Shown here in pieces: positions 2,382-27,862 of a stretch of 33,370 nucleotides of DNA (its first letter is position 1; the number at the start of each line of letters is the position of its first letter). The position numbers and the translations under genes are program-made. The DNA lies in assembly GCA_019243195.1 (NCBI GenBank), contig JAFAUQ010000179.1:1-33370 (forward strand). The letters run 5' to 3'. Source of the DNA: Hyphomicrobiales bacterium (GTDB taxonomy: Bacteria > Pseudomonadota > Alphaproteobacteria > Rhizobiales > Xanthobacteraceae). Under the pieces are notes generated by a model that had not been told where the DNA came from, did not search any database, and worked only from the letters and a program-made list of their open reading frames with translations.

Positions 2382-3406
2382 TGGACGCGCTGCCCGAGTT
2401 CCAATTACTGCGGCCGCGCACGCTGGGCGAAGCGCTCGCGGCGCGCACCGCTCACCCGGGAAGCCAGCTCATTGGCGGCGGCACCGACCTGTTGGTGAAC
2501 ATCCGCCGCGGCATCGTCGCACCGCCGGTGCTGCTCGATATGACGGGCGTGAGCGAACTCACGCAAATTTCGGCCGACGAGCAGCGGCTCGAGATCGGCG
2601 CTTCGGCAACGCTCGTCGATGTTGCAGCACATCCCGGCGTCGTCACCAACTATCCTACAGTGGCGCAGGCCGCGCACGGCGTCGCCGGCCCGACCCAGCG
2701 CAACATGGGCACGGTTGGCGGCAATCTCTGCCTCGACACGCGTTGCATCTTCTACAATCAAAGCACGTGGTGGCGTGCCGCCAACAATCATTGCCTAAAG
2801 ACCACCGGGGATGTTTGTTACGTAGCGCCGAAGAGCCACGGCGTGTGCTTCGCGACCTTCAGCGGCGATCTCGCACCGGCCCTGCTGGTGCTCGGCGCGC
2901 AGATCGACCTCGCCGGCCCCGGCGGCCGGCGCACGCTGCCGCTCGCCGACTTCTACATCGGCCACGCACGCCACGACACGGCGAGCGGCGACGGCAAGAA
3001 CTACTTGGCGCTGGCGCCGGACGAGATCGTGATCGCAGTGCGCGCCAAGCACACGCCGCGCCTGCGCTCGGGGTACGACAAAATCCGCATCCGCCGCTCG
3101 ATCGAATATCCGGTCGCCGGTGTCGCGGTGGCGCTCACCCGCGACGACGACGCGCTCGCCGATCTACGCGTCGCCTTCACCGGCACGAACCCGCGCCCGG
3201 TTCTGCTCGAGGGCACGGCGGCCTTATGCGGCAGCCCGTTGGATGAACGCGTGCTCGCCGGCCTCGATGCCCTGGTGCGCGACCAGATCATGGCGATGAA
3301 GACGACCTTCACGCCCGGCCATTACCGGCGTCGCGTCGCCGGCGTGCTCGCACGCCGGCTCGTTGCGCGCCTATGGGCGCAGGGATCAGAAATCCGGGAT
3401 CAGGGA

Positions 3407-3427
<21 letters not shown>
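2381..3427 (+). CDS. hcrB: 4-hydroxybenzoyl-CoA reductase beta subunit (FAD and [4Fe-4S])
   Basis: This is a 348-residue FAD-binding subunit of the molybdenum hydroxylase family. FAD-binding motifs LIGGGTDLLVN (30-40) and NMGTVGGNLC (108-117) are clear. A loop after the second motif carries Cys117, Cys122, Cys138, Cys146 and Cys156. Such a cysteine-rich insert is the hallmark of 4-hydroxybenzoyl-CoA reductase, where it holds an extra [4Fe-4S] cluster absent from xanthine dehydrogenases, and it is the strongest evidence for the substrate class. ATG at 2381 shares one base with the hcrA stop; GTG at 2378 is the alternative start. The last dozen or so codons (SEIRDQGSG and following) are translated from a GGGATCA-type heptamer hairpin, so the native C-terminus has been extended or replaced by repeat sequence. 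The gene overlaps the convergent ligase by 21 bases. Confidence 0.88.
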
Positions 3428-5528
<2,101 letters not shown>

Positions 5529-5893: not shown

Positions 5894-6250
5894 ATGCCCG
5901 CGCAGCGTTGGCGCGTACGACTCGGCGCGCACGCGGAGCGTGATCTCCTCAGCATTCTGCACTGGACAGCCGAAAATTTCGGCGCCCAACAAGCCAAGAA
6001 CTATCGAACAACCCTCGTGCAATCCATGCACGAGCTTGCCGTCGGACCGGATGTGCCAGGCGCCAGAAAACGCGACGAGCTTGGAAAGGGCCTTTATACG
6101 CTCCATGTCGCTCGGCATGGACGACGCGGACGCCACTTGTTGCTCTTTCGGGCGGAAGCCAAGCGCAACATCGAAATAGTACGCATTCTACACGACAGCA
6201 TGGACTTGCGACGGCATTTATCCGACCTGGGGCTGGAAGAGGACACGTAG
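5894..6250 (+). CDS. parE: Toxin, ParE/RelE superfamily
   Basis: This is a 118-residue protein with the ParE-type layout: two N-terminal helices (about 12-50), then a beta-sheet ending in RHLLLFRAE and IEIVRILHDSMDL, a common family ending. ParE toxins inhibit DNA gyrase, while RelE relatives cleave mRNA. The IVRILHDSMD ending and ParD partner favour ParE, but the mechanism cannot be settled from sequence. It lies 5 bases downstream of parD in the same operon, and its stop is only 3 bases from the stop of the convergent dehydratase gene. Confidence 0.87.
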   Translation: MPAQRWRVRLGAHAERDLLSILHWTAENFGAQQAKNYRTTLVQSMHELAVGPDVPGARKRDELGKGLYTLHVARHGRRGRHLLLFRAEAKRNIEIVRILHDSMDLRRHLSDLGLEEDT

Positions 6251-9973: not shown

Positions 9974-10845
9974 AAGGTATCGTGCTCGCCGGGGGCAGCG
10001 GCACGCGGCTTTATCCGATCACCCGCGCGCTGAGCAAACAGTTGCTCCCGGTTTACGACAAGCCGATGGTTTATTACCCGCTGTCGACCCTGATGCTGGC
10101 GGGCATTCGCGACATTCTCGTCATCACCACGCCGGAGGACCGCGAGCAATTCGAGCGCTTGCTCGGCGACGGCACCCAGTGGGGCATTCGCCTCTCCTAC
10201 GCGGTGCAGCCCCGGCCCGAGGGACTCGCCCAGGCATTCCTGATCGGTGCGGATTTCATCGGCGCGGACCGGGTCGCGCTGGTGCTCGGCGATAACGTAT
10301 TTTTCGGCCACGGCCTGCCGGAAATCCTTAAGCGCGCTGCCGCGCGCTCGACTGGCGCCACCATATTCGCCTACCAGGTGCGCGATCCGGAACGCTACGG
10401 CGTCGTCAGCTTCGATTCCGCCGGGCGCGCGCTCACCATCGCCGAGAAGCCGGCGAACCCGGCCTCACGCTGGGCGGTGACCGGGCTTTATTTCTACGAC
10501 ACGGACGTGGTGCGCCACGCGAGCAAAGTGCGGCCATCGGCGCGCGGCGAACTCGAAATCACCGACCTGAACATGCGCTACCTCACGGCGGGAACGCTCC
10601 ACGTCGAATTGATGGGGCGCGGCTTTGCCTGGCTCGACACCGGCACCTTCGACGCGCTGATCGACGCGGGGACTTTCGTGCACACGCTTGAGGAGCGCCA
10701 GGGCATGAAGATCGCCTGCCCCGAGGAAGTCGCCTACCGGATGGGGTTCATCACGCGCGAGGATTTGCTCAAGCTCGCAGCCTCCCTCGACAAGAGCGGC
10801 TACGGCCAGTACCTGCGCGACCTGACGGAGGCTTCCGAGCGTTGA
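9970..10845 (+). CDS. rfbA: Glucose-1-phosphate thymidylyltransferase
   Basis: This 291-residue nucleotidyltransferase makes dTDP-glucose from dTTP and glucose-1-phosphate, the committed first step of the pathway. The signature GGSGTRLYP (about 8-16) is followed by [18 protein letters not shown] and [11 protein letters not shown], all standard for RmlA. The start is ATG 9970, which overlaps the rfbD stop and gives the usual length. The longer upstream frame lies inside rfbD. The stop TGA (10843-10845) overlaps a TTG that may start the prenyl-phosphate phosphoribosyltransferase, extending the rhamnose operon into the arabinose pathway. Confidence 0.95.
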
Positions 10846-11726
10846 TTAAACCGATGACCACGTGGCTGCAGGCACTTCGGCTGCATCACTGGTCGAAGAA
10901 CCTGTTCGTGTTTGTTCCGGTCCTGCTCGGTCATGCTTATGTCGAGCAGGCGAAGGTGCTTGCCGCCGGCGCCGCGTTCTTGATTCTGGGCGTGCTCGTT
11001 TCCGCCGGCTACCTGATCAACGACATCGCCGATCTCGACGCCGATCGGCAGCATGAATCGAAACGGCATCGGCCGCTCGCGAGCGGCCGCATCTCGCGGC
11101 GCACCGGCATCACCGTTGCGATCGCGATGATCATCGTCGCGTTCGCCGCCGCGATCGCGCTGTCGCGCGACTTTGCCGTGCTGCTGCTCGTCTATTTCCT
11201 GCTGACCGTCGGCTATTCGCTCTGGCTCAAGAAACTCGCGCTCATCGACGTTGCGGCGATCGCCACCATGCTGACCCTGCGGATCGCGGCGGGCGGTGCC
11301 GTCACTGGGATCGGCCAGTCGCCCTGGCTGCTGTCGTTTTCCATGGCCTTCTTCCTCTCGCTCGCGCTTGCCAAGCGCCATTGCGAGATCAGGCAGGTGG
11401 CATTTTCCGGCGCGGGGGCCGTCGCCGGACGCGGTTTTCACGGCGACGACTGGCCGTTGACCCTGACGTTCGGCGTCGGCGCCGCTCTGACCTCGGTCCT
11501 CATCATGCTGCTCTACCTCGCCAATGACGCGGCGCCGTCCGGATTCTATCCCCGCCAGGGATGGCTCTATGTCGTTCCCGCGGCCATGCTGATCTGGCTC
11601 ATGCGCGTCTGGGTGCTCAGCCACCGCCGGGAACTGCACGACGACCCCGTTATCTTCGCGCTGAGGGACCCCGCGAGCCTCGTTCTGGGCGCGGCGGTGA
11701 TCGCCGCCTTCATCTTGGCTGTGTGA
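10842..11726 (+). CDS. UbiA-family decaprenyl-phosphate phosphoribosyltransferase (DPPR synthase, Rv3806c/NoeC type)
   Basis: This integral membrane prenyltransferase (294 residues, about 8-9 membrane segments) has the UbiA aspartate motif [11 protein letters not shown] starting at Asn60, followed by KRHRPLASG. The second conserved region is [12 protein letters not shown]. The late segment [10 protein letters not shown] matches the GEPEDIALRD type ending I recall from mycobacterial Rv3806c. That family transfers phosphoribose from PRPP to decaprenyl phosphate, the first committed step to polyprenylphosphoryl-D-arabinose. With DprE1 and DprE2 nearby this is far more likely than a ubiquinone enzyme. 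TTG 10842 overlaps the rfbA stop and has GGAGG 10 bases upstream; ATG 10854 is the alternative. The 3' end overlaps the convergent methyltransferase by 17 bases. Confidence 0.85.
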
Positions 11727-12390
11727 TCACGGTTGCGGGCTTGCGCGACACGACGAGAAATTGCTTGCCCAGGAAACGCCACGCGAACGGAACTGCCAGG
11801 TAGAGCGAAACCAAACGCGGATGCTGCGGCAGACGCGCGCGCGTGGTGTAGGGAAGAAAACGCGGGATGATTCGGTCGATTTCGAAATCGGATTGCACCA
11901 GCCCCTCTTCCAGCGATAAATGCGAAAGCGGCAGGTAATGATCGTAAAAGTCCCAGTATTCCGCCGCGAGATAGCGAATATTTGGCCCCATGATCACGAA
12001 GCGGCCGCCGGGCCGCAGGATGCGCCGCACCTCGACAAATACCCGATCACACTCGTCTTTGGTGCGCAGATGCTCGAGGAAGTTCGACGCGAACACGACG
12101 TCGACCTCGGCGTCGCCAATGGCAGTCACCGCATCCGCCCGCGCCAGGCAGAACTCGACGTCGGTTGCCAGGTGAGCGCGTGCGTCCGGATTGACGTCGA
12201 CCGCGTATTTCTTCCTGCCGCGGATGTTGTTGATGAACTCGCCATAGCCGCAGGCGAGATCGACGATGATTTGATCTTCCCCGATGAGCGGCTGGAAAAA
12301 CCGCGCGCACAGCACTTTCCAGATACGCATTTTGCCGGGCCGGTCGGCTTCACGAAAGCGGAACCGGTAGAGCTTGGAAAGATCGGGCAT
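11710..12390 (-). CDS. Class I SAM-dependent methyltransferase
   Basis: This 226-residue methyltransferase has the SAM motif I IIVDLACGYGEF (about 36-47), the acidic residue in VDVNPDA, VVFASNFLEHL as motif II and ILRPGGRFVIMGPN as the post-II loop. A hydrophobic C-terminal stretch (LYLAVPFAWRFLGKQFLVV) may touch the membrane. It is the last gene of the minus-strand dprE1 operon, 17 bases after the GtrA gene. ATG 12390 is chosen because the longer frame overlaps GtrA without similarity. The acceptor is unknown; a lipid-linked sugar or glycan hydroxyl is likely from context. The stop lies inside the 3' end of the convergent UbiA gene. Confidence 0.8.
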   Translation of the reverse strand: MPDLSKLYRFRFREADRPGKMRIWKVLCARFFQPLIGEDQIIVDLACGYGEFINNIRGRKKYAVDVNPDARAHLATDVEFCLARADAVTAIGDAEVDVVFASNFLEHLRTKDECDRVFVEVRRILRPGGRFVIMGPNIRYLAAEYWDFYDHYLPLSHLSLEEGLVQSDFEIDRIIPRFLPYTTRARLPQHPRLVSLYLAVPFAWRFLGKQFLVVSRKPATVITQPR

Positions 12391-12407: not shown

Positions 12408-12830
12408 TCACGCGCCGCGGAAAGTGATCGACTTGTGTAGCACGAAATTTACCAGGGCCGGAACCGCCACCGCGCAGCCGTGACCGAATGCCAACGCGAA
12501 CTGCCGCGGCAAGACGCCGGGCAGAATCCGTTCGCCGAGCAGATAGGCGATCGCCCACACGACCGGGAAGGCCACGAGGTTGAACAACACGAAATAACTC
12601 ATTTCCGCCACAAGCGGACGCCGGCTGTAGGGGAACACGTAGCGCTTGTTGAGCACGAAGGCGACTGCCATCCCGACTGCAAAGGCCGCGGCGATGGCCT
12701 CCCCATAGGTCATGAACAAGTTGAATACGAACCGGCTGAGCCAATTCGCGAGGGCGGCGATTCCGCCGGCGAGCAGAAACCACCCGAACTGGCGCGAGAC
12801 GTAGAGCGAGATGACGCGCCGAAGCGACAT
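12408..12830 (-). CDS. GtrA-family membrane protein (Rv3789-like)
   Basis: This is a 140-residue protein with four predicted membrane helices (about 14-34, 40-61, 76-97 and 108-130). Between helices 2 and 3 lies the GtrA-type FVLNKRYVF segment, and the protein ends in VNFVLHKSITFRG. GtrA proteins are thought to move or handle polyprenyl-phosphate sugars at the membrane. In mycobacteria the GtrA homologue Rv3789 is next to dprE1-dprE2 and has been linked to arabinosyl donor handling or AftA recruitment. The ATG shares one base with the stop of the preceding FAD oxidoreductase gene, so it is translationally coupled to the dprE operon. Confidence 0.85.
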   Translation of the reverse strand: MSLRRVISLYVSRQFGWFLLAGGIAALANWLSRFVFNLFMTYGEAIAAAFAVGMAVAFVLNKRYVFPYSRRPLVAEMSYFVLFNLVAFPVVWAIAYLLGERILPGVLPRQFALAFGHGCAVAVPALVNFVLHKSITFRGA

Positions 12831-14113
12831 CAGGCGGCGATCCGCTCGACCATCGCCTTGCCCAGGCGCACGCTTTCGGCGATGCCGCGGTCCTCGGGAT
12901 AATAAAAGCACGTATCGGCGATTTGCAGGCCGGCAATCGCACTCTCAATCGGCGGCAGCATGGCGGCAAAACCCGGCGGGCACACCGGCTGGGCGTGACG
13001 CAGGCGCCCCACATGGCACGCGATCACATCGCCCTCGCCGAGTGCAGGATTGATCAGCTTGAGATAGCCGAAGGCCTCGGCTCGGAACAACGCGTCGCTG
13101 CGGGCGAATTTCGGATGGCTCACCGGCATGTAGTACGGAACATAGACGACCGTGTCGCCGGTCGGCCGCAGGTTCGAAAACTCGACGATACCCGGGATTT
13201 CAAAGCGCTCGTCGGAAATGTTGATCCAGAAGTTCGGGCTGACCGAACGCTTGAGCCGGAACACGACGCACACCACGCCGATGTTGACGATCGCGCGGTA
13301 GCGCGCGAGATCGGCGGCCGGCAGGTCAGGCACCAGGCGCTCGACGAGTGGCGTCGGTACGGTGCTGATCACCGCGTCGGCCGGAAAGATCTCCTCGCCC
13401 GCGATGACCCCGGTCACCCGACCCCCTTCCACCGCCACCCGGCTCGCGGCGGTACCGAGACGAACCTCTCCGCCGCGTTTGCGGATGGCATCGACCAGCG
13501 CATGGATGAGCGTCTCCGAGCCGCCTTCGATGTAACCAAGCTCCTCCTGGAACATGGAACGTCGCGACGTGCCAATCCGCTTGATGCGGGTCCAGATCCA
13601 GGCGGCCGAGATGTTGTCGGCGTATTGGTAGAACTTGAGCTTGAATAGCGGCGCCCACAGCCGTTCGTAAACGCGCGCACCGCACCAGCGCGTGATCCAA
13701 TCCTTCGCGGAAACCTGCTCAAGGGAGCCGGCGTCGCGGCGACGCACGCCGGCGGCCATCATGGCCCCATAGCGCAGCTTCTCAACGAACGACAGCTTGG
13801 GAAAGCGCAGGAGCGATAACGGATCGCCCCAAGGCTCGAGCCGGCCGTCGATGTAATAGCCCATCGATGTGACGACCCATCGCATGCGCTCGCCGAGCCC
13901 GAGTTCATCGAGCAGTTCGAAGGTCGGCCGGTCCGCTTTGCAGACGAAGTGATAAAAGCGCTCGATCGACAGGCCGCCGAGGTCGAAATGCGCCGCCATG
14001 CCGCCGGCCTCGGGCGCCGCCTCCAGCACGGTGACCCGATGTCCGCGTTTGAGCGCGTAGTAGCCGGCCGCCAGCCCCATGGCGCCCGCCCCGATCACCA
14101 CCACGCTCGCCAT
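12830..14113 (-). CDS. FAD-dependent oxidoreductase (amine oxidase / protoporphyrinogen-oxidase-like)
   Basis: This 427-residue flavoprotein begins with the dinucleotide-binding motif VVVIGAGAMGLAAGYYAL and continues with VTVLEAAPEAGGMA and IERFYHFV. The middle segment IEGGSETLIHALVDAI and the late YYPEDRGIAESVRLGKAM complete the FAD fold. I know homologues as uncharacterised NAD(P)/FAD oxidoreductases in polysaccharide loci next to GtrA proteins. It is not clearly a UDP-galactopyranose mutase. It sits in the dprE operon between an epimerase and GtrA, so an oxidation, reduction or isomerisation on a sugar or lipid-linked sugar is plausible. ATG 14113 (GTG 14116 possible) is preceded by GGAG. 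Confidence 0.75.
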   Translation of the reverse strand: MASVVVIGAGAMGLAAGYYALKRGHRVTVLEAAPEAGGMAAHFDLGGLSIERFYHFVCKADRPTFELLDELGLGERMRWVVTSMGYYIDGRLEPWGDPLSLLRFPKLSFVEKLRYGAMMAAGVRRRDAGSLEQVSAKDWITRWCGARVYERLWAPLFKLKFYQYADNISAAWIWTRIKRIGTSRRSMFQEELGYIEGGSETLIHALVDAIRKRGGEVRLGTAASRVAVEGGRVTGVIAGEEIFPADAVISTVPTPLVERLVPDLPAADLARYRAIVNIGVVCVVFRLKRSVSPNFWINISDERFEIPGIVEFSNLRPTGDTVVYVPYYMPVSHPKFARSDALFRAEAFGYLKLINPALGEGDVIACHVGRLRHAQPVCPPGFAAMLPPIESAIAGLQIADTCFYYPEDRGIAESVRLGKAMVERIAA

Positions 14114-14116
14114 CAC

Positions 14117-15046
14117 CTAGAACTCCAGCGCGATCCGGGAATAGACCGGATCGCGATAGGTTTCGGCCAGCGCGGTCTTCAGCGGCGTCGGCTTGACCCC
14201 GAACAGGGCCGGCCAGTCGATCACTTCGAACACGTCAGGCGTCGCCAGCGCTTCGAGCTGTTTCGTGGTGAACGGCGGGTCGCGCGAAAAAAGGCCGTAG
14301 ACGAACAGCATCGACCAGAACAGCCGATAAGGCACCGGCACGATCCGCGCGGAACCCCCGGAAACCTCTTTCACGGCGCGGATGAGATCGACATAGTCGA
14401 TCGGCTCGAGCCCGGTGATGTTGTATTCGCCGGTCGGCCGGCACTCGATGCACGCCATCACGATATCGCAGAAGTCGCCCACGTAGAGCGGCTGGCGCAA
14501 GTAGCGACCGTGCCCGGGAATGGGAAAGAGCGGGGAGCGCTGCATGAATCGCGATAGCCACCCGAGGTGCTTGCGGTCGAACCACCCGAACATCAGCGTC
14601 GGCCGCAAGACGATGGCCGGAGAGCCCGACTGCAAAACCAGCTTCTCCTGCGCCTCCTTGCTCCAGACGTAGTCGTCCTTGGCCATCGATTTGACGACCG
14701 ACGAGCTGACATGGACCAAATAAACGTCGGGTCGCGCCACGGCCGCGAGCAGCCGTTCGGTCGCTGCGATATTGTTGCGGGCATACGTCGCACGATCGAG
14801 CCCGCCGATCTGCGCGTGACAGATCACGATGACGTCGACAGCGGCAACGGCCTGCTGCCAAGCGCCCGGTTCCGCAAGGTCCGCCTCGACGACCGTGACG
14901 TCCGGATGCAACCGGCGCAGCAGGGCGGTGTTGGCCGGATGCTTGTCGATCGCGACGATGTCGCGATAACCGCGCGCCTCCAGGCGCGGGATCAGATTCT
15001 GGCCGACCAGCCCGGCGGCCCCGGTAATGGCGATTCTCGCGGCCAC
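14117..15046 (-). CDS. NAD-dependent epimerase/dehydratase family protein (extended SDR)
   Basis: This 309-residue extended SDR protein has the nucleotide-binding motif ITGAAGLVGQNLIPRL at residues 6-21. The catalytic segment is HVSSSVVKSMAKDDYVWSKE, with a Tyr-x3-Lys pair. Later segments VLRPTLMFGWFDRKHLGW and YNITGLEPIDYVDLI are typical of sugar epimerases and reductases. The C-terminal region around YRLFWSMLFVYGLF is hydrophobic and may dock at the membrane. The GTG start follows the dprE2 stop by 3 bases. Its operon position suggests action on a nucleotide-linked or polyprenyl-linked sugar. The substrate cannot be read from sequence. Confidence 0.75.
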   Translation of the reverse strand: MAARIAITGAAGLVGQNLIPRLEARGYRDIVAIDKHPANTALLRRLHPDVTVVEADLAEPGAWQQAVAAVDVIVICHAQIGGLDRATYARNNIAATERLLAAVARPDVYLVHVSSSVVKSMAKDDYVWSKEAQEKLVLQSGSPAIVLRPTLMFGWFDRKHLGWLSRFMQRSPLFPIPGHGRYLRQPLYVGDFCDIVMACIECRPTGEYNITGLEPIDYVDLIRAVKEVSGGSARIVPVPYRLFWSMLFVYGLFSRDPPFTTKQLEALATPDVFEVIDWPALFGVKPTPLKTALAETYRDPVYSRIALEF

Positions 15047-15049
15047 GAT

Positions 15050-15796
15050 TCAAATCTTCAGCCGCCGGAACACGAACCACGGCAGGCGGCGGATGACGGC
15101 CATGATCGGCCGCCAGAACCACGGCGTATAGACGACGCGCGCCCCGCGGCGCACGGCGCGCTCGATATCGGTGGCGACGCGGTCGGGCGTACTCCACAAA
15201 GGCCCGCTCTTGACAAAGCCTGCTGTCATCGGCGTGTCGACGAAACCCGGCTTGACCAGGACGAAGCGCGCAGGCGTGCCCGCGTAAGCGTGGGCAAGCC
15301 CCTGGACGAAGATGTCGATCCCGGCCTTGGCGGCGCCGTAAATGAAATTCGTCCGGCGACCGCGGTCGCCGGCGACCGAGCCGATGACAATTGTGGTGAG
15401 CGGCTGGGTGGCCTCGCGGCCCTTGAGAAAGGCCAGCTGCCACAGCGCGGCGCTGGTAAAATTTACGTCCAGCGCCGCTTGGGCGGCGGCAACATCGCGC
15501 TCCAACACCGTTTGCTCGCCCAAGATCCCGTAGGCCAGAACAATCTCCTGCGGAGGGCCGAAGCGCGCGTGGATTGTTTCCACGGCGCTCTCGATCGCGC
15601 CGATGGCAGAAAGGTCCATCAGCAGGGGCTCGGCAGAAGCCGCGCCGCGTGTGACGAGATCCGCCGCAACGACCTTGAGCCGCTCTTCTCGTCGGCCGGC
15701 AAGCACGAAGCGCACGCCTGCGGCGGCACGACGACGCGCATAGGCCTGCGCGATCGCGGAGGTCGCGCCGAGAATGACAACGAGATCCGTGCTCAT
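15050..15796 (-). CDS. dprE2: Decaprenylphosphoryl-2-keto-D-erythro-pentose reductase (DprE2-like)
   Basis: This 248-residue short-chain dehydrogenase has the nucleotide-binding motif VILGATSAIAQAYA and catalytic Tyr153/Lys157 in FIYGAAKAG. Beyond generic SDR features, three segments match mycobacterial DprE2 as I recall it: AYGILGEQ (AFGLLGDA in Rv3791), GDRGRRTNFIYG (GERVRRANFVYG) and the ending RRLPWFVFRRLKI (RHIPRSIFRKLPI). DprE2 reduces the 2-keto intermediate made by DprE1 to decaprenylphosphoryl-D-arabinose with NADH. The start overlaps the dprE1 stop in an ATGA arrangement, so the two subunits of the epimerase are co-translated. Confidence 0.87.
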   Translation of the reverse strand: MSTDLVVILGATSAIAQAYARRRAAAGVRFVLAGRREERLKVVAADLVTRGAASAEPLLMDLSAIGAIESAVETIHARFGPPQEIVLAYGILGEQTVLERDVAAAQAALDVNFTSAALWQLAFLKGREATQPLTTIVIGSVAGDRGRRTNFIYGAAKAGIDIFVQGLAHAYAGTPARFVLVKPGFVDTPMTAGFVKSGPLWSTPDRVATDIERAVRRGARVVYTPWFWRPIMAVIRRLPWFVFRRLKI

Positions 15797-17115
15797 GCGG
15801 CGTCCGCGGCGACCCGGCGCCAGAAGTCGGACATGAGCGCCGGATCGCGCTGCTCTTCGAGCTGGCGCCACTGCGGGTAACCGGCACGGAAGGCTTCGCC
15901 CGACATGGTCGCGTCTTTGGCCGGATAAAGCCGGCCCGCGGCCGCGACCACCACATCGGTCATGCGATCGAGCAACCGCCGGGTGCCGTCACCGCGGTTG
16001 GCAAGATCGAGCGCCAGCGTGACGCCGGATTTGGGAAACGACAGCAGTCCCGGCGATGGACGATCACCCAACACTTTGAGCACCGTGAGGAATGACGGCT
16101 CGCCGCCTTCGGCGCTCAGCTCGAGCAGGCTACGCAGCGTCTCTGGCGCATTCTTCATGGGCACGACCGACTGATGCTGAAAAAATCCGCGGCGGCCGTA
16201 TAGCCGGTTCCAGTCTGAAAGCGAATCGAGCGGATAGAAGAACGGCTCGTAGTGCATCGTCCCGCGGCCCGTGGCCCACGGACGCGTACGGTAGAAATAA
16301 TTGAACAGCGCGATCGTGCCGCGATTGAGAAGATGGCGCGCGACGTGCGGCACCGCGATCTGCTTGCGACCATGGGGCGTAAGCGCGCCCGCGTCGGCAT
16401 GGCGTCCACGCATGAAAAGGCCGCGGCCGAGCGAGGGCCCGCGCGCCAGACTGTCCACCCAGGCGACAGTGTAAGGCCAATCGGCGCTCTCGGCCGAAAG
16501 GCGGAAAAAATCATCGAGCCGCGCCATCGCGAGGGTCTCGACGTCCATCGTTGCGGAGCGGATCGGCAGCAGTTTCAGCTCGACCCAGACGATCACGCCG
16601 GTGAGCCCGAGTCCGCCGACGGTCGCAGCAAATAGCGGCGAGTCAACAGATAGGTCCAGCATCTCGCCGGTCGAGCGCGCGAGCCCGATCCGGCGCACGT
16701 GGCAGCCGATGGTTCCGGCGCTCTCCTGGTTCTTGCCATGCACGTCGTTTGCGACGGCGCCGCCAAGCGTGACAAATTTTGTCCCGGGAGTCACGGGAAG
16801 GAACCAACCGCGCGGCACGCAAACGCGGAGCAAAGCGTCGAATGAGAGGCCCGCTTCCGCGCGCACCACGCCGGTTTCCCAATCGGCGGTAAGAAAATGA
16901 TCCGCCCGCGCAGTATCGAGCAGATAGCCGCCGCCGTTGAGGGCAACATCGCCATACGAACGGCCGAGGCCGCGACACAGCAGCGGCCGTTTGTCGGACG
17001 CCCGGATCGCCGCCACCATCTCATCGGCGAAGGCCGCCGGCACGATCACGTGCGCGCGCGGCTGCAAACGCCCCCACGCGTACACCTGTTGCCGTTCACT
17101 GGTATTTCGGTCCAT
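15793..17115 (-). CDS. dprE1: Decaprenylphosphoryl-beta-D-ribose 2-oxidase (DprE1-like)
   Basis: This 440-residue FAD-linked oxidase opens with RGLGRSYGDVALNGGG and continues with GGAVANDVHGKN (His126), both DprE1 signatures. RLYPAKDAT carries Lys400, the counterpart of the essential Lys418 of mycobacterial DprE1. The position of Cys387, the cysteine attacked by benzothiazinones, reads Ala368 here (FPKSGVTLALDL). The enzyme oxidises the 2-hydroxyl of polyprenylphosphoryl-ribose, and DprE2 then reduces the ketone to give the arabinose epimer. ATG 17115 is used (GTG 17121 possible), and dprE1 leads the minus-strand operon. A generic L-gulonolactone-oxidase relative is less likely given DprE2 directly downstream. 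Confidence 0.9.
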   Translation of the reverse strand: MDRNTSERQQVYAWGRLQPRAHVIVPAAFADEMVAAIRASDKRPLLCRGLGRSYGDVALNGGGYLLDTARADHFLTADWETGVVRAEAGLSFDALLRVCVPRGWFLPVTPGTKFVTLGGAVANDVHGKNQESAGTIGCHVRRIGLARSTGEMLDLSVDSPLFAATVGGLGLTGVIVWVELKLLPIRSATMDVETLAMARLDDFFRLSAESADWPYTVAWVDSLARGPSLGRGLFMRGRHADAGALTPHGRKQIAVPHVARHLLNRGTIALFNYFYRTRPWATGRGTMHYEPFFYPLDSLSDWNRLYGRRGFFQHQSVVPMKNAPETLRSLLELSAEGGEPSFLTVLKVLGDRPSPGLLSFPKSGVTLALDLANRGDGTRRLLDRMTDVVVAAAGRLYPAKDATMSGEAFRAGYPQWRQLEEQRDPALMSDFWRRVAADAA

Positions 17116-17170
17116 CGGCACCCCGTCTTGGTATTTACATGGCCTGGGGCGCGTGAGAAGGGTCGCTTAC
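17116..17170. promoter_or_regulatory. Short divergent region between dprE1 and the GT-C candidate
   Basis: Only 55 bases separate two divergent starts, so at least one promoter must extend into a coding region. No clear -35/-10 pair is visible. The tight spacing suggests shared control of the arabinose-donor operon and the membrane protein. Confidence 0.3.
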
Positions 17171-18661
17171 ATGATTGCGCCGCGACCGATCCTGTCGTTC
17201 CTCTCGTATCTGCTCTATGCGGCCGCTGCACTCATTGCCGTGAAGGAGCATCCTTCCGCCTGGGCCGACGAACACGACTACAGTTTGCCGGCGGCAATTT
17301 CGCATGCGGTCTACGGCACGCGGCTCGGCATCTACCAGAGCAGCGTCCGTGCGGTGTTTTTCGCGCTCGATCGAACCGGGCTGACGCCGCAGTCGTTGCG
17401 CGACGCGGTCGAGGTCGCGAGCCGGGGGGATCTCCCGCCCGGTGGTTACACGCTCGCGAACGATGGGCTCGGCGCCGGGCAGCCCTTGTTCATGGGCGTC
17501 GCGGCAGACCTGTTTGGGCCGCATCTGTCTTCCTTTCCGATTCTGTTCTTGCTGCTGATGGGTATTGCGACGTTCTGCTTCATCGCCCGGTTCGACGACA
17601 GCCGCTTGTTCATGGTGCCGCTGACCTTCACGGCCCTGTGTGTCATGCTGTTGACGCCGCTGCTCTCCGACCAAGAGGTTCTTGATCAAGCGCCGATCGG
17701 CGGAAACCGTTTCTTCGGCATGCTCGGCGTCCTGCCGGCGCTTCATCTTTACTTCGACCTGCGCGAGGAGCCGACGAAAATGTCCTCAAGCAGATCCCGG
17801 CTGAGCGCGGTGCAACTCGTCCTGTTGCTCCTCACCATCCTCACGCGCAGCAGCTCCGCCTATCTGCTCGGGTTATTGGCACTCGGGGGGTTCGAACGAT
17901 GGCGCTCCACCCGAGTGGATCGCGCTCGGCGCTCGATCTTTTGGCGGGAGGTGCGCCGTCTGGCGCTTTTGGCGCTCGTCTCCCAGACCATCATGGTTGC
18001 AATCGTCTACGATTATATGCTGCGCGGCCGGGTATTCGGTGCGGTTTGGCACCGGGCGTTCGTGAGCTTGTCGCTTCACCCCGAGTGGCCATTCGGCAAT
18101 TTGCGCGAGGTTTACGATTGCACCAAAGTCATGCCGGAGGGGCTCACCCGGGCGCAGCATGATGCGAACGGGTACTGCGTGTGGTTTGCCGTGAACCATG
18201 ACCAACCCGCGAGCAAACTCGCCGAGGGCGTGCTCGGTCCCGCATATGAAGCGACGCTGCGGAACGCGCTGTTCAAGGTGATCTGCTCATATCCCCGGCA
18301 AGCTTTCGAGCTTTATTTCTATTATAAGCCGCTGTTTCTCTGGCAGACGCTGCGCCGTGCCGTCGATATCGAATGGCGCGCCTTTTCGCCATCGGTCCTT
18401 GCGCTCGTAACTCTCGAGATAGTGCTGTTTCTCGGCTTCATCATCAACGGCGCGCTTGCCGGAAAACCCGAGGTGACCTGGCGGCTCGGCGTCATTCCGA
18501 TTCTCTTCGTGCTCTCGATTCCATCGCAATTTATTGCCTGGAGCAGTCTTCACACTGGCGTCGAGGTCGTGTTCTATATGTACTGCCTGATCGCCGCCGC
18601 CGTCGCCCTCGCCGTGCAGGCAATGATGAGAACTATCGCGAGACCGGCTGAGCCGGGGTAA
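17171..18661 (+). CDS. Multi-pass membrane protein, candidate GT-C (arabinosyl)transferase
   Basis: This is a 496-residue protein with about nine hydrophobic segments (for example 7-24, about 117-137, 146-166, 215-235, 275-295 and three in the last 100 residues). Directly after the first helix comes WADEHDY, with Asp33, Glu34 and Asp36. An acidic pair in the first periplasmic loop is the usual catalytic feature of GT-C glycosyltransferases that use polyprenyl-phosphate sugars. I do not recognise a specific family. It is divergent from dprE1, as the arabinosyltransferase AftA sits beside dprE1-dprE2 in mycobacteria, so it is a candidate for using polyprenylphosphoryl-D-arabinose. ATG 17171 is chosen because the frame upstream lies inside dprE1 antisense. 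A polymerase (Wzy-like) role is the main alternative. Confidence 0.7.
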   Translation: MIAPRPILSFLSYLLYAAAALIAVKEHPSAWADEHDYSLPAAISHAVYGTRLGIYQSSVRAVFFALDRTGLTPQSLRDAVEVASRGDLPPGGYTLANDGLGAGQPLFMGVAADLFGPHLSSFPILFLLLMGIATFCFIARFDDSRLFMVPLTFTALCVMLLTPLLSDQEVLDQAPIGGNRFFGMLGVLPALHLYFDLREEPTKMSSSRSRLSAVQLVLLLLTILTRSSSAYLLGLLALGGFERWRSTRVDRARRSIFWREVRRLALLALVSQTIMVAIVYDYMLRGRVFGAVWHRAFVSLSLHPEWPFGNLREVYDCTKVMPEGLTRAQHDANGYCVWFAVNHDQPASKLAEGVLGPAYEATLRNALFKVICSYPRQAFELYFYYKPLFLWQTLRRAVDIEWRAFSPSVLALVTLEIVLFLGFIINGALAGKPEVTWRLGVIPILFVLSIPSQFIAWSSLHTGVEVVFYMYCLIAAAVALAVQAMMRTIARPAEPG

Positions 18662-18706: not shown

Positions 18707-19987
18707 ATGAGCATGAGAGCAACCGCGCGGCGCTTGGGCTCGCGCGTCGCCGATGACATTGCGCTGTCGTTCGATGCGCTGACGCGTCCGCTGCGGGGAC
18801 CGCGGCCGGGGCTGCGCACCGGCCATTTCCAAATCTGCCACACGCGGCACGAGCACGATCGCGTCTATGCCGAGAACGTTGGCGAATATTTTCGGCAGAT
18901 CGGCGTCGCCTGCAAAGTATTCGAGTTTGAGGCGCCGGGGCGCTGGCCGGGGCTGCGCCGGTGTCTCACGGCGGACACGATCGGTGTGCTGGGGATCAAC
19001 GCGGAATTGGATCACTGCTGGATCGGCAGCAAGGATTTCCTCACCGGCGCGGCGCTGCGCGGGGTGCCGGTGATCCACTGGATCCTGGACCATCCAAGCG
19101 CGCGCTGGCAGCAATTCACCCATGCTACCGCGGCAAATTCGCGCTTCCTGTTCGTGTCGGACTTCGCGGCGGATTACTTCCGGCGCTACTGCCTGCCGAG
19201 CGCCCGCCTCGCCGCGACCGCCTCGGTCGGAGCCAATTGGCGCTCGCGCATCCCCACGCTTTCGCGCGAGGAATTTCTCACCCGGCAGACCACCTGCCTC
19301 ATTCCGCTCGGTCTCAAGCGCATCGGCGGCACGATCGCGGATGTCCGCGAACGCCTTGCCCGTGTCGATCCCGGTTTGCAGATCGCGTTGCGCGAAGCGA
19401 TCGAACGGGCACGTCACGACCTTGAAGGTCCCCTCGAGGCTCATCTCGTTGCCGCGCTTGCGCGCTCGGGACGCGAGTTGCACGGGAGCGAGTTCCATCG
19501 CTGCTTTCAGATCGTCGACGACACGGTACAGATCGAGCGACGTTCGCAGATTTTCGCCGTCGCGGCGCGCTTCCCCGTCGCAATCCAGACCGACGTGGCT
19601 CCCCCAGTGTCGAACTCAGTCGCGCGCATCAGCACCGACGCGCAGACCATCTCCATGACGGCCACGACCGAGCGGATGAAATCGTGCCGCGCGGTGCTCA
19701 GCGCCAACTACGCCAACGACCTGTTCCATGACCGCACCCAGAACGGTCTCAACGCCGGGTGCGCCGCGATCGTCGAGGACACCCCGGTGCACCGGCGGCT
19801 ATTCACCCACGGCAAGAACGCCCTGCTCTTCCGCTATCACGACGACAGCCTCGCCGAGTGCCTCGACCTCGTGTGCGATCATCCGCAGCGCGCCTACGAG
19901 ATCGCCCAGGCGGGGTTTGCGCTGCGCGACGATCCGGCCGTGCGTTTCGGCGGGTTCGATAACATCCTCAAGCTCGCGCGCGCCTGA
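18707..19987 (+). CDS. Glycosyltransferase, CgeB/GT1-like C-terminal domain
   Basis: This 426-residue, soluble-looking protein has two Rossmann-like halves. The N-terminal half contains GVPVIHWILDHP and FLFVSDFAADYFRRY. The C-terminal segment ANYANDLFHDRTQNGLNAGCAAI followed by EDTPVHRRLFTHGKNALLFRY matches the nucleotide-sugar-binding end of CgeB/YkvP-type glycosyltransferases, which carry a conserved glutamate or aspartate after an AGC motif. The donor and acceptor are unknown. It follows the GT-C candidate by 45 bases on the same strand and may be co-transcribed with it. The ATG at 18707 is followed by a second ATG at 18713. Confidence 0.65.
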   Translation: MSMRATARRLGSRVADDIALSFDALTRPLRGPRPGLRTGHFQICHTRHEHDRVYAENVGEYFRQIGVACKVFEFEAPGRWPGLRRCLTADTIGVLGINAELDHCWIGSKDFLTGAALRGVPVIHWILDHPSARWQQFTHATAANSRFLFVSDFAADYFRRYCLPSARLAATASVGANWRSRIPTLSREEFLTRQTTCLIPLGLKRIGGTIADVRERLARVDPGLQIALREAIERARHDLEGPLEAHLVAALARSGRELHGSEFHRCFQIVDDTVQIERRSQIFAVAARFPVAIQTDVAPPVSNSVARISTDAQTISMTATTERMKSCRAVLSANYANDLFHDRTQNGLNAGCAAIVEDTPVHRRLFTHGKNALLFRYHDDSLAECLDLVCDHPQRAYEIAQAGFALRDDPAVRFGGFDNILKLARA

Positions 19988-22025: not shown

Positions 22026-22096
22026 CGAATAGCGAGTAGCGAATAGTAGTGGGAACCGCGGAGAATCCATTCGCTATTCGCTATTCGCTATTCGCA
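22025..22096. repeat. Heptamer hairpin, GCGAATA units, between convergent genes
   Basis: The left arm is GCGAATA-GCGAGTA-GCGAATA (22025-22045). The right arm has four TATTCGC-type units (about 22068-22095), with about 22 bases between. The minus-strand gene's last codons (RIANSE) are read from the right arm. The position between convergent ends suggests a bidirectional terminator. Confidence 0.8.
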
Positions 22097-23924
22097 CGTC
22101 GATATGTAAGCTCGACGCCGGCTGCCCAGCGCCATCGCCCGCCGCCGCGAACAAATTGGCCAATAACGTCAGCAACGCGAGCGGCACGGCAAACAGCGCC
22201 AGCCCCGGCAGCCCGATCCACGGCCGCTGGTGCGCGTCCGCACCCAGCCGCGCGAAAGTCTGGTAGGACCACGCGCGCAGGCGGCTCGCCGGAACATAAC
22301 GGATCTCCTGCAGTCGCGCTGCGCCGCGCAGCGTCTCGGCGAGCGCCGTTGCGAACGATTCCGCGTTTTCCATCGGTCGCGGCTCCCGCACGACAATCAG
22401 CACCGTTCCGCCACCCTGCATCGCAGGCGCGATCCTGCGGATGAGTTCCCCAGTCTTTTCGACATCGCGTTGGTCGAGTTCGATGAGACACAGGCCGAAG
22501 TGGTCGACAAACCCGTCACGGACAGGCGCGCCCTGAAGGAAAGGAGTTGTTTGAAGGGTGGTGACGCGCTGCCCGTATGCCGCCAGCATCACGGAGAACA
22601 GCGTCGGCGCATCGGCAACGTGCAGCAGGCGCCGCGCCGGATTGGCGAAGAAAGGCGAGAGCCGTCGTAACACCGGCCCATAGTCCGGCCAGCGCGGATG
22701 CCAGGGCCGCACGCCCGGTGGATAGCCGATCAGGAGAGCGCGGAGCCGTTCTATCCAACGGCCGCGCCGGCTCGCCGCGCCGAGAAGCGCGCGCAGCGCC
22801 TCGGGGCTCAGCTGCCCGCGCGCCGCCTCCTGCACCGTGGCAATGGCGCCGCGCCAATAGGGATGCCCGTAATGCGGCTGCGGCGGGCTCCGCAGCCGCC
22901 GCGTCACTTGCACCACGTAATCGTCCGCCGCCGCGACGGCAGCGGGCAACGCGGCCGGCAGCTCGCCGGCGTGATAGACGACCGTATGGGCGACGTTTTG
23001 ACGATGCTGCGCCGTCGTCCATTCCTCGAGGCTGCGCGCAAGGACATCCGGTTGCAGCGGCCCTGGCCGCAGGAACCCCGCCTCGTGCGTTCGCGGCTGC
23101 ATTTCCACGACCAGGTATTCGTCGGAATCGGTAATGACGGAGACGTTCCCGGACGGACACATCTCCGGCACGAAGGAATAATCCCACGATGCGCCGACCC
23201 GGAAGTCGATCACCTCGGGACGAACGGCGATCATGTGCATCAGAAAAAACCGGCCGAGCAGCGTTTGCTCATCGACGCGCCAGAACAGGCGGTTGGTGTG
23301 CGCGTTGTGCGTGGATGAGACGTTCACCGTGTTGGCGACGGTGGCAGGGTGAAGATGATCGAGCGCAAAGCGCATCAGCGCCCGGGCGGAAAAGGCGGCG
23401 CCCGCCGCTGGGTGGGGCCCGATGCGCGCACGCAGCCACGGGGTCGCTTCCTCGGCGGTGACTTGGAAATTGCCGACCAGCACCGCGCTGGCGCCGGCGC
23501 GCACGCGCGCGAGCACGCTCGCCAGTGAACCATCGGCAACGATGTAATCGGAGACAAGAAACATGAAGCACGTGTCGAGCATGGCGGGGCCTGCGGCACG
23601 GATTGCCTCCGCGTACGCCAGGGTGAGCGTGGTGGAATTGTTCCCTGCCGTGATCAGATGATCGATCGGCCGGAGACTCGCCGGGCAGATGTCGGCCAGA
23701 CGAAGAAAAGCCGGATGCTGGCGGATGTAGCTTTCGTCCGCGGCGCTGGTGAGGATTGCAAATTCGCTCGGCAGCGACTGCGCCAACGCCGGCACGTTTC
23801 TCGGCGCCAGCAACGTGGGCAGCCCGATTTCGAGAAATTGCCGGACGTAGCGGTGGCCCCAGACCGGCAGCAGCAATTTGACCGATTTGAGCGGCGGGCG
23901 TCGGTCGCGCTCGATTTGCTGCAA
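22074..23924 (-). CDS. Unrecognised two-domain protein: glycosyltransferase-like N-terminus, methyltransferase-like C-terminus, terminal membrane helix
   Basis: I do not recognise this 616-residue protein. The N-terminal part begins VKLLLPVWGHRYVRQFLEIG and contains FLVSDYIVADGS, which resembles a GT-A fold with an acidic metal-binding motif (about residues 18-300). Residues about 470-560 resemble a degenerate Rossmann methyltransferase domain: RRLLHVADAPTLF, then FGLCLIELDQRDVEKTG and MQGGGTVLIVVRE. A hydrophobic stretch near the end (LFAVPLALLTLLANLF) could anchor it. The open frame continues upstream to 24095 inside the acyltransferase gene. TTG 23924, 4 bases after that gene's stop, is the most economical start, and ATG 24014 is another choice. 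The final RIANSE comes from the adjacent hairpin. Confidence 0.6.
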   Translation of the reverse strand: MQQIERDRRPPLKSVKLLLPVWGHRYVRQFLEIGLPTLLAPRNVPALAQSLPSEFAILTSAADESYIRQHPAFLRLADICPASLRPIDHLITAGNNSTTLTLAYAEAIRAAGPAMLDTCFMFLVSDYIVADGSLASVLARVRAGASAVLVGNFQVTAEEATPWLRARIGPHPAAGAAFSARALMRFALDHLHPATVANTVNVSSTHNAHTNRLFWRVDEQTLLGRFFLMHMIAVRPEVIDFRVGASWDYSFVPEMCPSGNVSVITDSDEYLVVEMQPRTHEAGFLRPGPLQPDVLARSLEEWTTAQHRQNVAHTVVYHAGELPAALPAAVAAADDYVVQVTRRLRSPPQPHYGHPYWRGAIATVQEAARGQLSPEALRALLGAASRRGRWIERLRALLIGYPPGVRPWHPRWPDYGPVLRRLSPFFANPARRLLHVADAPTLFSVMLAAYGQRVTTLQTTPFLQGAPVRDGFVDHFGLCLIELDQRDVEKTGELIRRIAPAMQGGGTVLIVVREPRPMENAESFATALAETLRGAARLQEIRYVPASRLRAWSYQTFARLGADAHQRPWIGLPGLALFAVPLALLTLLANLFAAAGDGAGQPASSLHIDVRIANSE

Positions 23925-23928
23925 AGGA

Positions 23929-25182
23929 TCAGCGTCCGGCTGCAATGCGGGCGGCGTCCTCGACCGAGGCTTCCCGCGCCGGCGACGGAAGTCGCCGCCG
24001 TCCGTATGCGGCATTGAACGCCGCACGCAGCCAAGCCTTACCCGGGCGCTCGATCGAGAAATAGAGCAAGCTCGCCCAGACCGCGACGAGTACAAACCCG
24101 ATTGTCATGGTGTAGGCCGCCGCGCCAAACCCGAGCACGAACATGAACGTGAACACGAACGGGTGCCCGAGATAGATCGAGTAGCTGACCTCGCCGAGAT
24201 AGGTCGGTACCCGGTGGCCGAGCGCGCGGGCAATCGAAGAACCGCCGAGCGCGAGCGCCAGGATCAACAGAGCGCAGCCCGGCGCCATCAGGAAGTTCTT
24301 ATGCAGGAAAACCACGTAATCCAGAAACTGGCCGCGCTCGCCGAAATCCCATTGCGCGACCAGCAGCACGAGGGCCACGAGCATCCACGCGACACCGCTC
24401 CAGGCGAGGAATTCGCCGATCCTCGTCCGCACGGTCGCACCCGAGCGCTGGATGAGCAGGTAGATCTGACAGGTCAGCACGCCGGCGAGGAACTCCGGAA
24501 TATGAAAATAGGGCGAGAGATAGACCAGCCAACGGTAGAACGAATTATCCATATCGACGTCGGTCGAGACATATTCCGGATGACGTGCGAGAACAAATGC
24601 CAGCCACGACGCTTGCGTGGCAAACACGAGATAGAAAACCGCAAACGTCAGAACACATAGTCCGACCAGCAGCACGGTGCAGCGTCGAATGCTGGAAATC
24701 GCAACGATCCGATAGAGCACAAGGGCGTAGACTAGATAAAAGAACATCTCGGTCGAGATCGACCATGAGATGTGATAGCGCTGCCCGGCAAACGACTCGC
24801 CATCGACCACCCAGTACCACCACGTTCCGGTCAGTGACGCGAACGACAGGCCGATGCCGGGGTGAGCGAAGAACACACGGCCGAGCTTGCCGAGCAGATA
24901 AAACAGCAGGATTGCGAAAAACAGCGGGTACAGGCGCGAGAACCGCGCGAAGGCAAAGGCCGGAACGGCGGCGCGCCAGCTCTTCGCGAACGAGCCGGCA
25001 TAGACGTAATGCACGATGAAGCCGCTCAACGTGAAGAACAGCGGCATGCCGATGACGGAGATCGGGCTGTGCAACCCGAACGGCATGAAACTCGAGCCTT
25101 CGGCAAAATGCGCAAACACGATGGTCCCGGCGGCGACGAAGCGCAGTCCCGTCAATGCCGGAATTTCCGGTGCCTTCCCCAT
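23929..25182 (-). CDS. Membrane acyltransferase 3 family (OafA/YrhL type)
   Basis: This 417-residue protein with about ten membrane segments starts with IPALTGLRFVAAGTIVFAHF, the family's opening motif including its conserved arginine and histidine. Other helices are visible through the middle, for example LYPLFFAILLFYLLG and YSIYLGHPFVFTFMFVLGF. Such proteins O-acetylate or otherwise acylate polysaccharides using cytoplasmic acyl-CoA. It would decorate the polymer made by this locus. ATG 25182 starts the domain at the usual place; TTG 25218 is the only longer alternative. The stop lies just before the probable start of the next minus-strand gene. Confidence 0.85.
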   Translation of the reverse strand: MGKAPEIPALTGLRFVAAGTIVFAHFAEGSSFMPFGLHSPISVIGMPLFFTLSGFIVHYVYAGSFAKSWRAAVPAFAFARFSRLYPLFFAILLFYLLGKLGRVFFAHPGIGLSFASLTGTWWYWVVDGESFAGQRYHISWSISTEMFFYLVYALVLYRIVAISSIRRCTVLLVGLCVLTFAVFYLVFATQASWLAFVLARHPEYVSTDVDMDNSFYRWLVYLSPYFHIPEFLAGVLTCQIYLLIQRSGATVRTRIGEFLAWSGVAWMLVALVLLVAQWDFGERGQFLDYVVFLHKNFLMAPGCALLILALALGGSSIARALGHRVPTYLGEVSYSIYLGHPFVFTFMFVLGFGAAAYTMTIGFVLVAVWASLLYFSIERPGKAWLRAAFNAAYGRRRLPSPAREASVEDAARIAAGR

Positions 25183-26115: not shown

Positions 26116-26261
26116 CACCGATCAACGCTCCCGCGGGCTCGTTATTCCGGCTTCGTCGCCCGCGTCCCAATAAGGGGCTTTAGCCGTAAACGTTCCTCTT
26201 GTCTGCGGTAAAGATAGAGCCTAGGGGAACGGCGGGGCCGGAACGGGCAGCGGGAATCTCA
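26116..26261. promoter_or_regulatory. Divergent region between the GT2 gene and wzm
   Basis: These 146 bases must carry promoters for both directions. I could not find a well-spaced -35/-10 pair or a convincing dyad. GGGA lies about 8 bases before the wzm ATG. Confidence 0.3.
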
Positions 26262-27089
26262 ATGTTGCAGGCATTCGACGCCACCACCGGCGCCGCCATG
26301 CCCCATTCGGGCGCGGCGCTTTGGCTTGGCCTGCGCACCGTGCGGAACCTGCGCAAGGGTCTCACCTGGGCGTGGCTCGACACCGTCTGCCAATACCGGC
26401 GTTCCAAGATCGGACCGATCTGGGAGACCATCAATGTCCTGGTGATGACACTCGGCATTGCCGTCGTCTCTTCGGCGGTGATCGGCGGAACGGTGACCAA
26501 CCTCATCGGCTATGTCGGGCTCGGCATCATCGTATGGACGGCGATCACGTCGCTTATCAGCGAAGGTACGACCGCCTTTGTGCGCAACCGGGACGCCATA
26601 CTGTCTTCGAATTTGAGCATCGATTTCTATGTCGCGCGAATGAGTTTTCGCATCTTCATCACGTTCTGCCACCATCTCATACTCTATTTCATCGGCGTCG
26701 CGATCGGACTGATAGGGCTGCACTGGGCGGCGCTGCTGGCCATTCCGGGCATCGTGCTTTTGTTCGTGAACGGCTTTTGGACGATAACCCTGCTCTCGCT
26801 CGTGTGCGCGCGCTATCGCGACGTCGAGCTGATCATCCGTAACCTGCTGCAGCTCGCTTTCTTCGTCACACCGGTCTTCTGGGACTATCGCCACATCGTC
26901 TCGAACCGAAGGTTCATCGTCGATTACAACATTCTGTTCTATTTTCTGGAGATCGTGCGCGCGCCGCTGCTGGGCGAAGTACCGACGGCACAAACTTATA
27001 TCGTCGTCGTCTCGGTGACCGTGGTCGGCTACGCGATGGCTTATCTGGTTTATCGCCGGATGCGGCGCGATCTCGCTTTCTACGTTTAG
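26262..27089 (+). CDS. wzm: ABC-2 type polysaccharide exporter permease
   Basis: This 275-residue membrane protein has the six-helix layout of Wzm/KpsM/TagG permeases. An amphipathic N-terminus (TVRNLRKGLTWAWLDTVCQYRRSKIGPIWE, split here as two adjoining stretches) leads to helices such as INVLVMTLGIAVVSSAVI and the late LLQLAFFVTPVFWDY. With the ATPase 20 bases downstream it would export a complete lipid-linked O-antigen or capsule chain across the inner membrane. ATG 26262 has GGGA about 8 bases upstream; a TTG at 26199 would only add a basic tail. Its presence argues for the ABC-dependent rather than the Wzx/Wzy route. Confidence 0.88.
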   Translation: MLQAFDATTGAAMPHSGAALWLGLRTVRNLRKGLTWAWLDTVCQYRRSKIGPIWETINVLVMTLGIAVVSSAVIGGTVTNLIGYVGLGIIVWTAITSLISEGTTAFVRNRDAILSSNLSIDFYVARMSFRIFITFCHHLILYFIGVAIGLIGLHWAALLAIPGIVLLFVNGFWTITLLSLVCARYRDVELIIRNLLQLAFFVTPVFWDYRHIVSNRRFIVDYNILFYFLEIVRAPLLGEVPTAQTYIVVVSVTVVGYAMAYLVYRRMRRDLAFYV

Positions 27090-27109
27090 ATCGAGGCTTG
27101 GCGACGACC

Positions 27110-27862
27110 ATGTCCCGCGTCAACCTCGAAGGCGTCAGCGTGCACATCCCCGTGTACGATGCGAATACTCTGCGTTTGCTGCGCATGCCCAAATTCGGCC
27201 GCGCCAAGGTCGGAACCGGCAACGTGAGCCACGCGGGCGCGCGCCTCATCATTCACGCGCTCAGCAATCTCGACCTCGCGCTCGAGGAAGGCGACCGGGT
27301 CTGCGTCATCGGCCACAACGGGGCCGGCAAGACGACCCTGCTGCGGCTGATCGCGGGCATTTACCCGCCATCGGGCGGCCGCATGACGATCGACGGCAAG
27401 GTGATGGCGCTGCTCGGCCAGAATCTTAGCCCCAATCCCGACGCCACCGGCTACGAGAATATCGCGCTGATCGCCAACCTGTTCGACTGGCCCAAGGAAC
27501 GCCTGCCCGAATACATCCGCGACATCGAGGAATTCACCGAACTCGGCGAATATCTGGCGCTCCCCACCCGAATCTACTCCGCCGGCATGCACGCGCGGCT
27601 CGCGTTCGCGATGGCGACGATCCAGGTGCCCGACGTGCTGCTGATCGACGAGGCGATGGGCGCGGGCGACGCGCATTTCCAGCTAAGAGCGCGTGCGCGC
27701 ATTCAGCAATTCATCAGCCGCGCCAAGATCATGGTGATGGCTTCGCACTCGATCGATTTCTGCCGCGCCATGTGCAACAAGGCGCTGCTGCTGGCGCACA
27801 GCGAGCGGGTCTTCTTCGGCGATATCGATGAGGGATTTGCCCGCTACGCCGAATTGGGGTGA
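27110..27862 (+). CDS. wzt: ABC polysaccharide exporter ATPase
   Basis: This 250-residue ATPase has Walker A GHNGAGKTT (68-76, Lys74), the signature YSAGMHARL (156-164) and Walker B VLLIDEAMGAGD with Asp180-Glu181, followed by the His switch in MVMASHS. A chain this short has only the nucleotide-binding domain. It lacks the C-terminal carbohydrate-binding domain found in Wzt proteins that recognise a capped non-reducing end. Export is therefore probably coupled to synthesis and not dependent on a terminal modification, as in KpsT- or RfbE-like systems. ATG 27110 is used; a TTG at 27098 is possible. The stop overlaps the convergent methyltransferase by 19 bases. Confidence 0.9.
   Translation: MSRVNLEGVSVHIPVYDANTLRLLRMPKFGRAKVGTGNVSHAGARLIIHALSNLDLALEEGDRVCVIGHNGAGKTTLLRLIAGIYPPSGGRMTIDGKVMALLGQNLSPNPDATGYENIALIANLFDWPKERLPEYIRDIEEFTELGEYLALPTRIYSAGMHARLAFAMATIQVPDVLLIDEAMGAGDAHFQLRARARIQQFISRAKIMVMASHSIDFCRAMCNKALLLAHSERVFFGDIDEGFARYAELG

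Follow-up and report, generated by a model that had tools for sequence, protein, structure and literature searches.

A candidate polytopic glycosyltransferase of a sparse, unnamed family beside dprE1 and dprE2 in a Hyphomicrobiales bacterium

A gene that diverges from a dprE1 homologue in a Hyphomicrobiales bacterium probably encodes a periplasmic transferase that is GT-C-like and belongs to a new sequence family; in this locus it would use polyprenyl-phosphate D-arabinofuranose as its donor. We give this reading a probability of roughly 0.55. The gene lies in contig JAFAUQ010000179.1, of which positions 1 to 33,370 are called the window here. A sequence-only reading had pointed to this gene as an unrecognized membrane protein in an AftA-like position, serving the donor made by the flanking operon. 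What it observed was confirmed, and what it made of the observation is partly supported by the evidence below.

The candidate gene and the dprE locus

The genes and motif on which the argument depends are the following.

10842..11726, + strand: UbiA-family polyprenyl-phosphate phosphoribosyltransferase homologue (PF01040; PDB 8j8j, decaprenyl-phosphate phosphoribosyltransferase, E 9.9e-24)
11710..12390, - strand: SAM methyltransferase, last gene of the dprE operon (PF08241, E 9.5e-13)
12408..12911, - strand: GtrA/DPMS transmembrane protein, candidate lipid-sugar flippase (PF04138, E 1e-12)
12830..14116, - strand: FAD-dependent amine-oxidase-like protein of the dprE operon (PF01593, E 1.1e-27)
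14117..15046, - strand: NAD-dependent epimerase/dehydratase of the dprE operon (PF01370, E 7.5e-22)
15050..15871, - strand: dprE2, SDR 2-reductase homologue (PF00106; NCBIfam DprE2, E 7.5e-46, below cut-off)
15793..17121, - strand: dprE1, decaprenylphosphoryl-ribose 2-oxidase homologue (PDB DprE1, E 1.3e-68; PF01565)
17171..18661, + strand: candidate polytopic glycosyltransferase of an unnamed family (496 aa, ATG start; ORF and topology analysis)
17261-17281: acidic WADEHDY motif, residues 31-37 of the 496-aa candidate
18707..19987, + strand: cytoplasmic glycosyltransferase that follows the candidate on the same strand after 45 bp (PF13524, E 5.3e-8)
26199..27089, + strand: ABC-2 polysaccharide exporter membrane subunit, Wzm-like (PF01061, E 2.4e-8)
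27098..27862, + strand: ABC exporter ATPase, Wzt-like (PF00005, E 5.4e-20)

The candidate open reading frame is a real gene. It is intact on the plus strand at the coordinates first reported, its GC content by codon position (0.62/0.45/0.76) is coding-like, and the AGAAGGG upstream of its ATG at 17171 is a plausible ribosome-binding site. The gap to dprE1, on the opposite strand, is 49 bp if dprE1 starts with the GTG at 17121 and 55 bp if it starts with the ATG at 17115; the 55 bases given earlier correspond to the second of these. The AftA-like position, adjoining dprE1-dprE2, was correctly recognized, and the unrecognized membrane protein does lie with a UbiA-DprE1-DprE2 set and with a GtrA gene, which the earlier reading had not mentioned.

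The protein has eight separate 19-residue windows with a mean hydropathy above 1.6, compared with a mean of 3.5 and a maximum of 8 in shuffled sequences (n = 1000). Once weaker hydrophobic segments are included, hydropathy gives about 9-10 spans, in agreement with the nine or so counted before. In a ten-span model with both termini inside, the long outside loops are residues 25-120 and 282-406, and the density of Lys and Arg is 0.25 inside versus 0.09 outside, which fits the positive-inside rule. Helix 1 ends near residue 24, so that D33, E34, and D36 of the WADEHDY motif fall within the following loop, just where they had been placed, and the C-terminus lies just past the last helix. The candidate is thus predicted to fit the GT-C trait of an extracytoplasmic loop that follows helix 1 in a protein of 7-13 transmembrane helices, a plan that is common in membrane proteins.

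The minus-strand operon runs in the order dprE1, dprE2, epimerase, amine-oxidase-like protein, GtrA/DPMS protein, and methyltransferase, with the UbiA homologue on the plus strand. The dprE1 product scores 357 bits with the NCBIfam DprE1 model, under its 500-bit cut-off, and the dprE2 product scores better on the generic PRK07102 SDR model, likewise below that model's cut-off. The UbiA homologue aligns only to residues 192-480 of PRK08238 and is devoid of the N-terminal HAD phosphatase domain. No 5'-phosphate phosphatase was recognized among the window genes examined, in a source genome that is 66% complete, and no GtrB-like synthase gene occurs within the window. Judged by these homologies, the window carries the greater part of a three-component pentofuranose system together with a Wzm/Wzt-like ABC exporter.

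Other features of the window were also recorded. The presence of a GtrA/DPMS gene in the dprE operon mirrors that of Rv3789 beside mycobacterial dprE1, and the epimerase and amine-oxidase-like protein (12830-15046, minus strand) may further modify the lipid-linked pentose. A 672-aa ORF of the polysaccharide locus (22074-24095, minus strand) has no Pfam match. By eye, positions 54-5161 read like the large and FAD subunits of a molybdenum hydroxylase followed by an aryl-CoA ligase, perhaps for 4-hydroxybenzoyl-CoA metabolism, and a 118-aa ORF at 5894-6250 (plus strand) resembles a ParE/RelE-type toxin.

A remote family and the search for known relatives

Three distant alphaproteobacterial genomes (G538, G508, and G724) yielded six relatives of the candidate, some full-length and some partial. 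The first was obtained in a class-level search (E 4e-9), a profile search retrieved three copies in G538 (MAG.417) and two in G508, and a later profile match was an N-terminal fragment at a contig end in G724. Identity between the candidate and its relatives is 20-25%. The copies of G538 reach pairwise BLAST values between 1e-9 and 1e-5 with the candidate, whereas those of G508 are not significant and join the family through the G538 members. Two of the paralogues in G538 (L014:8858-12734) lie side by side, are divergently transcribed, and are 44% identical.

The family is rare, being found in 3/289 class genomes and 1/299 phylum-level genomes, where each count includes the source genome. Single-sequence searches (101 relatives, 398 order-level genomes, GTDB contigs, plasmids, and viral contigs) returned nothing or chance matches, and no relative was seen in the genus or family of the source organism. 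A contig scan with alignment A4 recovered the source genome and no other, and the diversity of alignments A2 and A3 was too great for such a scan. The weak matches L002, L003, L005, and L006 were discarded as unrelated or interrupted frames.

Searches of Pfam, NCBIfam, and PDB with the candidate and with the six-member profile gave chance matches only, and membership of AftA or of any known GT-C family thus found no support in these databases. In Pfam, the AftA_N, AftA_C, and Arabinose_trans models did not match the candidate even at E <=10, barring chance matches, and no Wzy_C domain was matched. The candidate also lacks the traits of EmbA/B/C (GT53), with no Arabinose_trans domain according to Pfam and no C-terminal CBM given its length. 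By sequence, then, the candidate is not AftA, EmbC, PMT, or Wzy. The missing Pfam match is in itself weak evidence of novelty, because other GT-C-like proteins near alphaproteobacterial dprE1 are also unmatched.

Comparison of profiles by hhalign placed the family not clearly above reversed controls when set against PMT_2 (26 proteins), Wzy_C (28 proteins), and UbiA. A weak alignment of the candidate with PMT_2 (78-168 to 63-147, E 0.08) falls in the expected place but within noise. The GT-C-like fold that we infer was also approached by AlphaFold, where the pLDDT values of 42.7 for the candidate and 40.0 for one relative each come from a three-row alignment, too shallow to test the fold; Foldseek with the low-confidence candidate model (pLDDT 42.7) was uninformative.

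The D33-E34-x-x-Y37 of the candidate resembles the D-E-x-x-Y of PMT_2 proteins, a motif found in 0.9% of shuffles of the candidate's loop, in 7/26 PMT_2 GT-C proteins, and in 0/28 Wzy_C proteins; it is absent from the other members of the family. The five full-length relatives all conserve an Asp that follows helix 1, and its counterpart in the candidate is D33 or E26, depending on the alignment. Any catalytic residue named for the candidate is putative, and Glu34, one of the acidic residues singled out at first, is not conserved among the relatives. The invariant positions of the family include acidic residues and Arg (D98, E/D360, R226, and R364), which is what may be expected of an enzyme.

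Donor synthases and alternative roles

All four contigs that carry relatives encode a synthase of polyprenyl-phosphate sugars of the GtrB/ArnC type (PDB GtrB 5ekp, E 1.7e-68). The distance from the family gene to the nearest synthase is ~0.1 kb in G724, 1.0 and 4.6 kb in G508, and 1.2 kb (G538:C244) and 5.8 kb (G538:C256) in G538, and only 3-4 GtrB/ArnC-type genes were found per relative genome. In a genome of 5 Mb, a site picked at random would lie within ~6 kb of a synthase with a chance near 1%, which is an unfair null, given that polysaccharide genes cluster; the association covers only four contigs. It is mainly because the relatives accompany these synthases that a role as a lipid-phosphate-sugar transferase is accepted for the candidate, for which the donor module in the window is UbiA-DprE1-DprE2. 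The consistent pattern suggests that the family follows polyprenyl-monophosphate-sugar donors, and the donor available in this window would be polyprenyl-phosphate D-arabinofuranose.

The homologues had been expected to co-occur with dprE1 and dprE2, which was partly contradicted. No relative lies beside dprE1; the best dprE1 match in G508 is unconvincing (E 2e-6 over 155 residues); G538 has UbiA-dprE1-dprE2 on a contig other than that of its family genes; and the dprE1 loci of 18 other alphaproteobacterial genomes contain no family member. By these data the family in general has no tie to arabinose, and D-arabinose specificity is suggested by the context of this window only. The association with lipid-sugar synthases supports the function first proposed and makes a family of arabinosyltransferases less likely.

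As regards dprE1 itself, UbiA-dprE1-dprE2 modules are common in Alphaproteobacteria, with dprE1 at E <=1e-60 in 20/190 genomes. Such loci (L024:9954-12943, L044, L046, L049, L053-L057, L060, and L061) are often devoid of a recognizable GT-C neighbor, and in two alphaproteobacterial modules an LPG_synthase_TM gene (PF03706) lies between UbiA and dprE1. A search of the literature for DprE1 together with alphaproteobacterial LPS found nothing.

These observations bear on whether the candidate could be a GT-C-like transferase for some other polyprenyl-phosphate sugar, for example a hexose from a GtrB-like synthase encoded elsewhere, with the dprE1 neighborhood incidental. The relatives all neighbor GtrB/ArnC-type synthases and not dprE1, other contigs of the source genome (G000) carry two genes for such synthases, and UbiA-dprE1-dprE2 modules serve unrelated loci in other Alphaproteobacteria. 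However, the window itself is without a GtrB-like synthase and yet has a nearly complete DPA-type donor set with GtrA, and the candidate diverges from dprE1 at a distance of only ~50 bp, which makes this alternative unlikely.

A Wzy-type polymerase or a WaaL-type O-antigen ligase (GT-C-B fold), acting on a diphospho-lipid-linked glycan, would also be polytopic, with a large late outer loop (as at 282-406), and at home in a polysaccharide locus. We regard this as improbable, given that the candidate has no Wzy_C match and no significant hhalign score with the 28-protein Wzy_C profile, that the exporter of the locus is of the ABC type and needs no Wzy, and that the family associates with monophosphate-sugar synthases. 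It is very improbable that the protein has another role in the polysaccharide locus, such as that of a non-GT acyl- or phosphotransferase, or is a degraded, nonfunctional GT-C relative: it is a single, very divergent copy with no close relative in the same genus or family, in a family of only 20-25% identity, but the frame is intact and the acidic and Arg positions are invariant family-wide. The least probable role is in flipping or transporting the lipid-linked sugar, which would suit the roughly ten membrane spans and the MATE flippase used in the three-component systems of Citrobacter (PMC11127046), but the window already has a GtrA-type candidate flippase, a flippase would be unusual in having outer loops as long as 96 and 125 residues, and no MATE, MOP, or MFS Pfam match was obtained.

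The route that we infer for the donor, acceptor, and linkage of the candidate transferase is as follows. The UbiA homologue and a phosphatase would produce polyprenyl-phosphate ribose, which DprE1/DprE2 would epimerize to polyprenyl-phosphate D-arabinofuranose. GtrA would flip this lipid across the membrane, and the candidate would move the pentofuranose from the lipid onto a glycan on the outside, probably the polysaccharide for which the ABC transporter at 26-28 kb serves as the exporter. With somewhat less than even odds, we tentatively propose a new CAZy-level GT-C family, sparse in Alphaproteobacteria, that is paired with interchangeable donor modules, mostly GtrB-type hexose-phospholipid synthases and here UbiA-DprE1-DprE2.

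The transfer of D-arabinofuranose outside mycobacteria is little characterized, and the transferases are too divergent for detection by sequence. A family recognized through its pairing with lipid-sugar synthases would offer a new search handle for periplasmic enzymes that decorate glycans, and would supply a Gram-negative consumer of the DprE1/DprE2 product that is open to testing.

Comparison with known systems

In mycobacteria, the arabinan cluster has the order Rv3789 (GtrA)-dprE1-dprE2-aftA (GT85). The window shares with it dprE1, dprE2, and GtrA next to a polytopic candidate transferase, as well as a UbiA protein homologous to the phosphoribosyltransferase. It differs in gene order and in its additional oxidoreductase, epimerase, and methyltransferase genes, and the candidate, at 496 aa, is without the C-terminal soluble domain of AftA.

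The loci of the relatives, where the family is paired with GtrB/ArnC-type synthases, resemble the GtrA-GtrB-Gtr* systems of O-antigen glucosylation. The window has GtrA in common with these systems but not GtrB, and the candidate has no detectable match to a Gtr* transferase in Pfam or NCBIfam. With PMT_2/ArnT-like GT-C-A proteins the candidate shares a D-E-x-x-Y motif that follows helix 1 and a comparable arrangement of helices and loops, whereas hhalign to the 26-protein profile gave no significant score.

Three-component pentofuranose systems have been experimentally described in Citrobacter; in the same study the examples that contain Araf carry DprE1/E2, and the last step falls to a polytopic transferase that has acidic residues close to helix 1 (PMC11127046). 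Of their parts, the window has the UbiA type, the DprE1/E2 epimerase, and GtrA as a flippase candidate, and no flippase of the MATE type was seen. As in Citrobacter youngae O1/O2 (GT136 ORF12, PMC11127046), a UbiA-type phosphoribosyl transferase making polyprenyl-phosphate pentofuranose would be combined with a flippase and a polytopic transferase, and the addition to an already polymerized polysaccharide, known from that system, is proposed for the window. The window differs in having DprE1/E2 in place of the Xylf epimerase, GtrA in place of MATE, and a UbiA protein without the fused phosphatase domain. Near helix 1, GT136 ORF12 has D31, E34, and Y35 (PMC11127046) and the candidate has D33, D36, and Y37; the candidate, compared with GT136 by description only, is without the C-terminal CBM of ORF12. 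The kind of system is thus already known, and the family of its transferase appears to be new.
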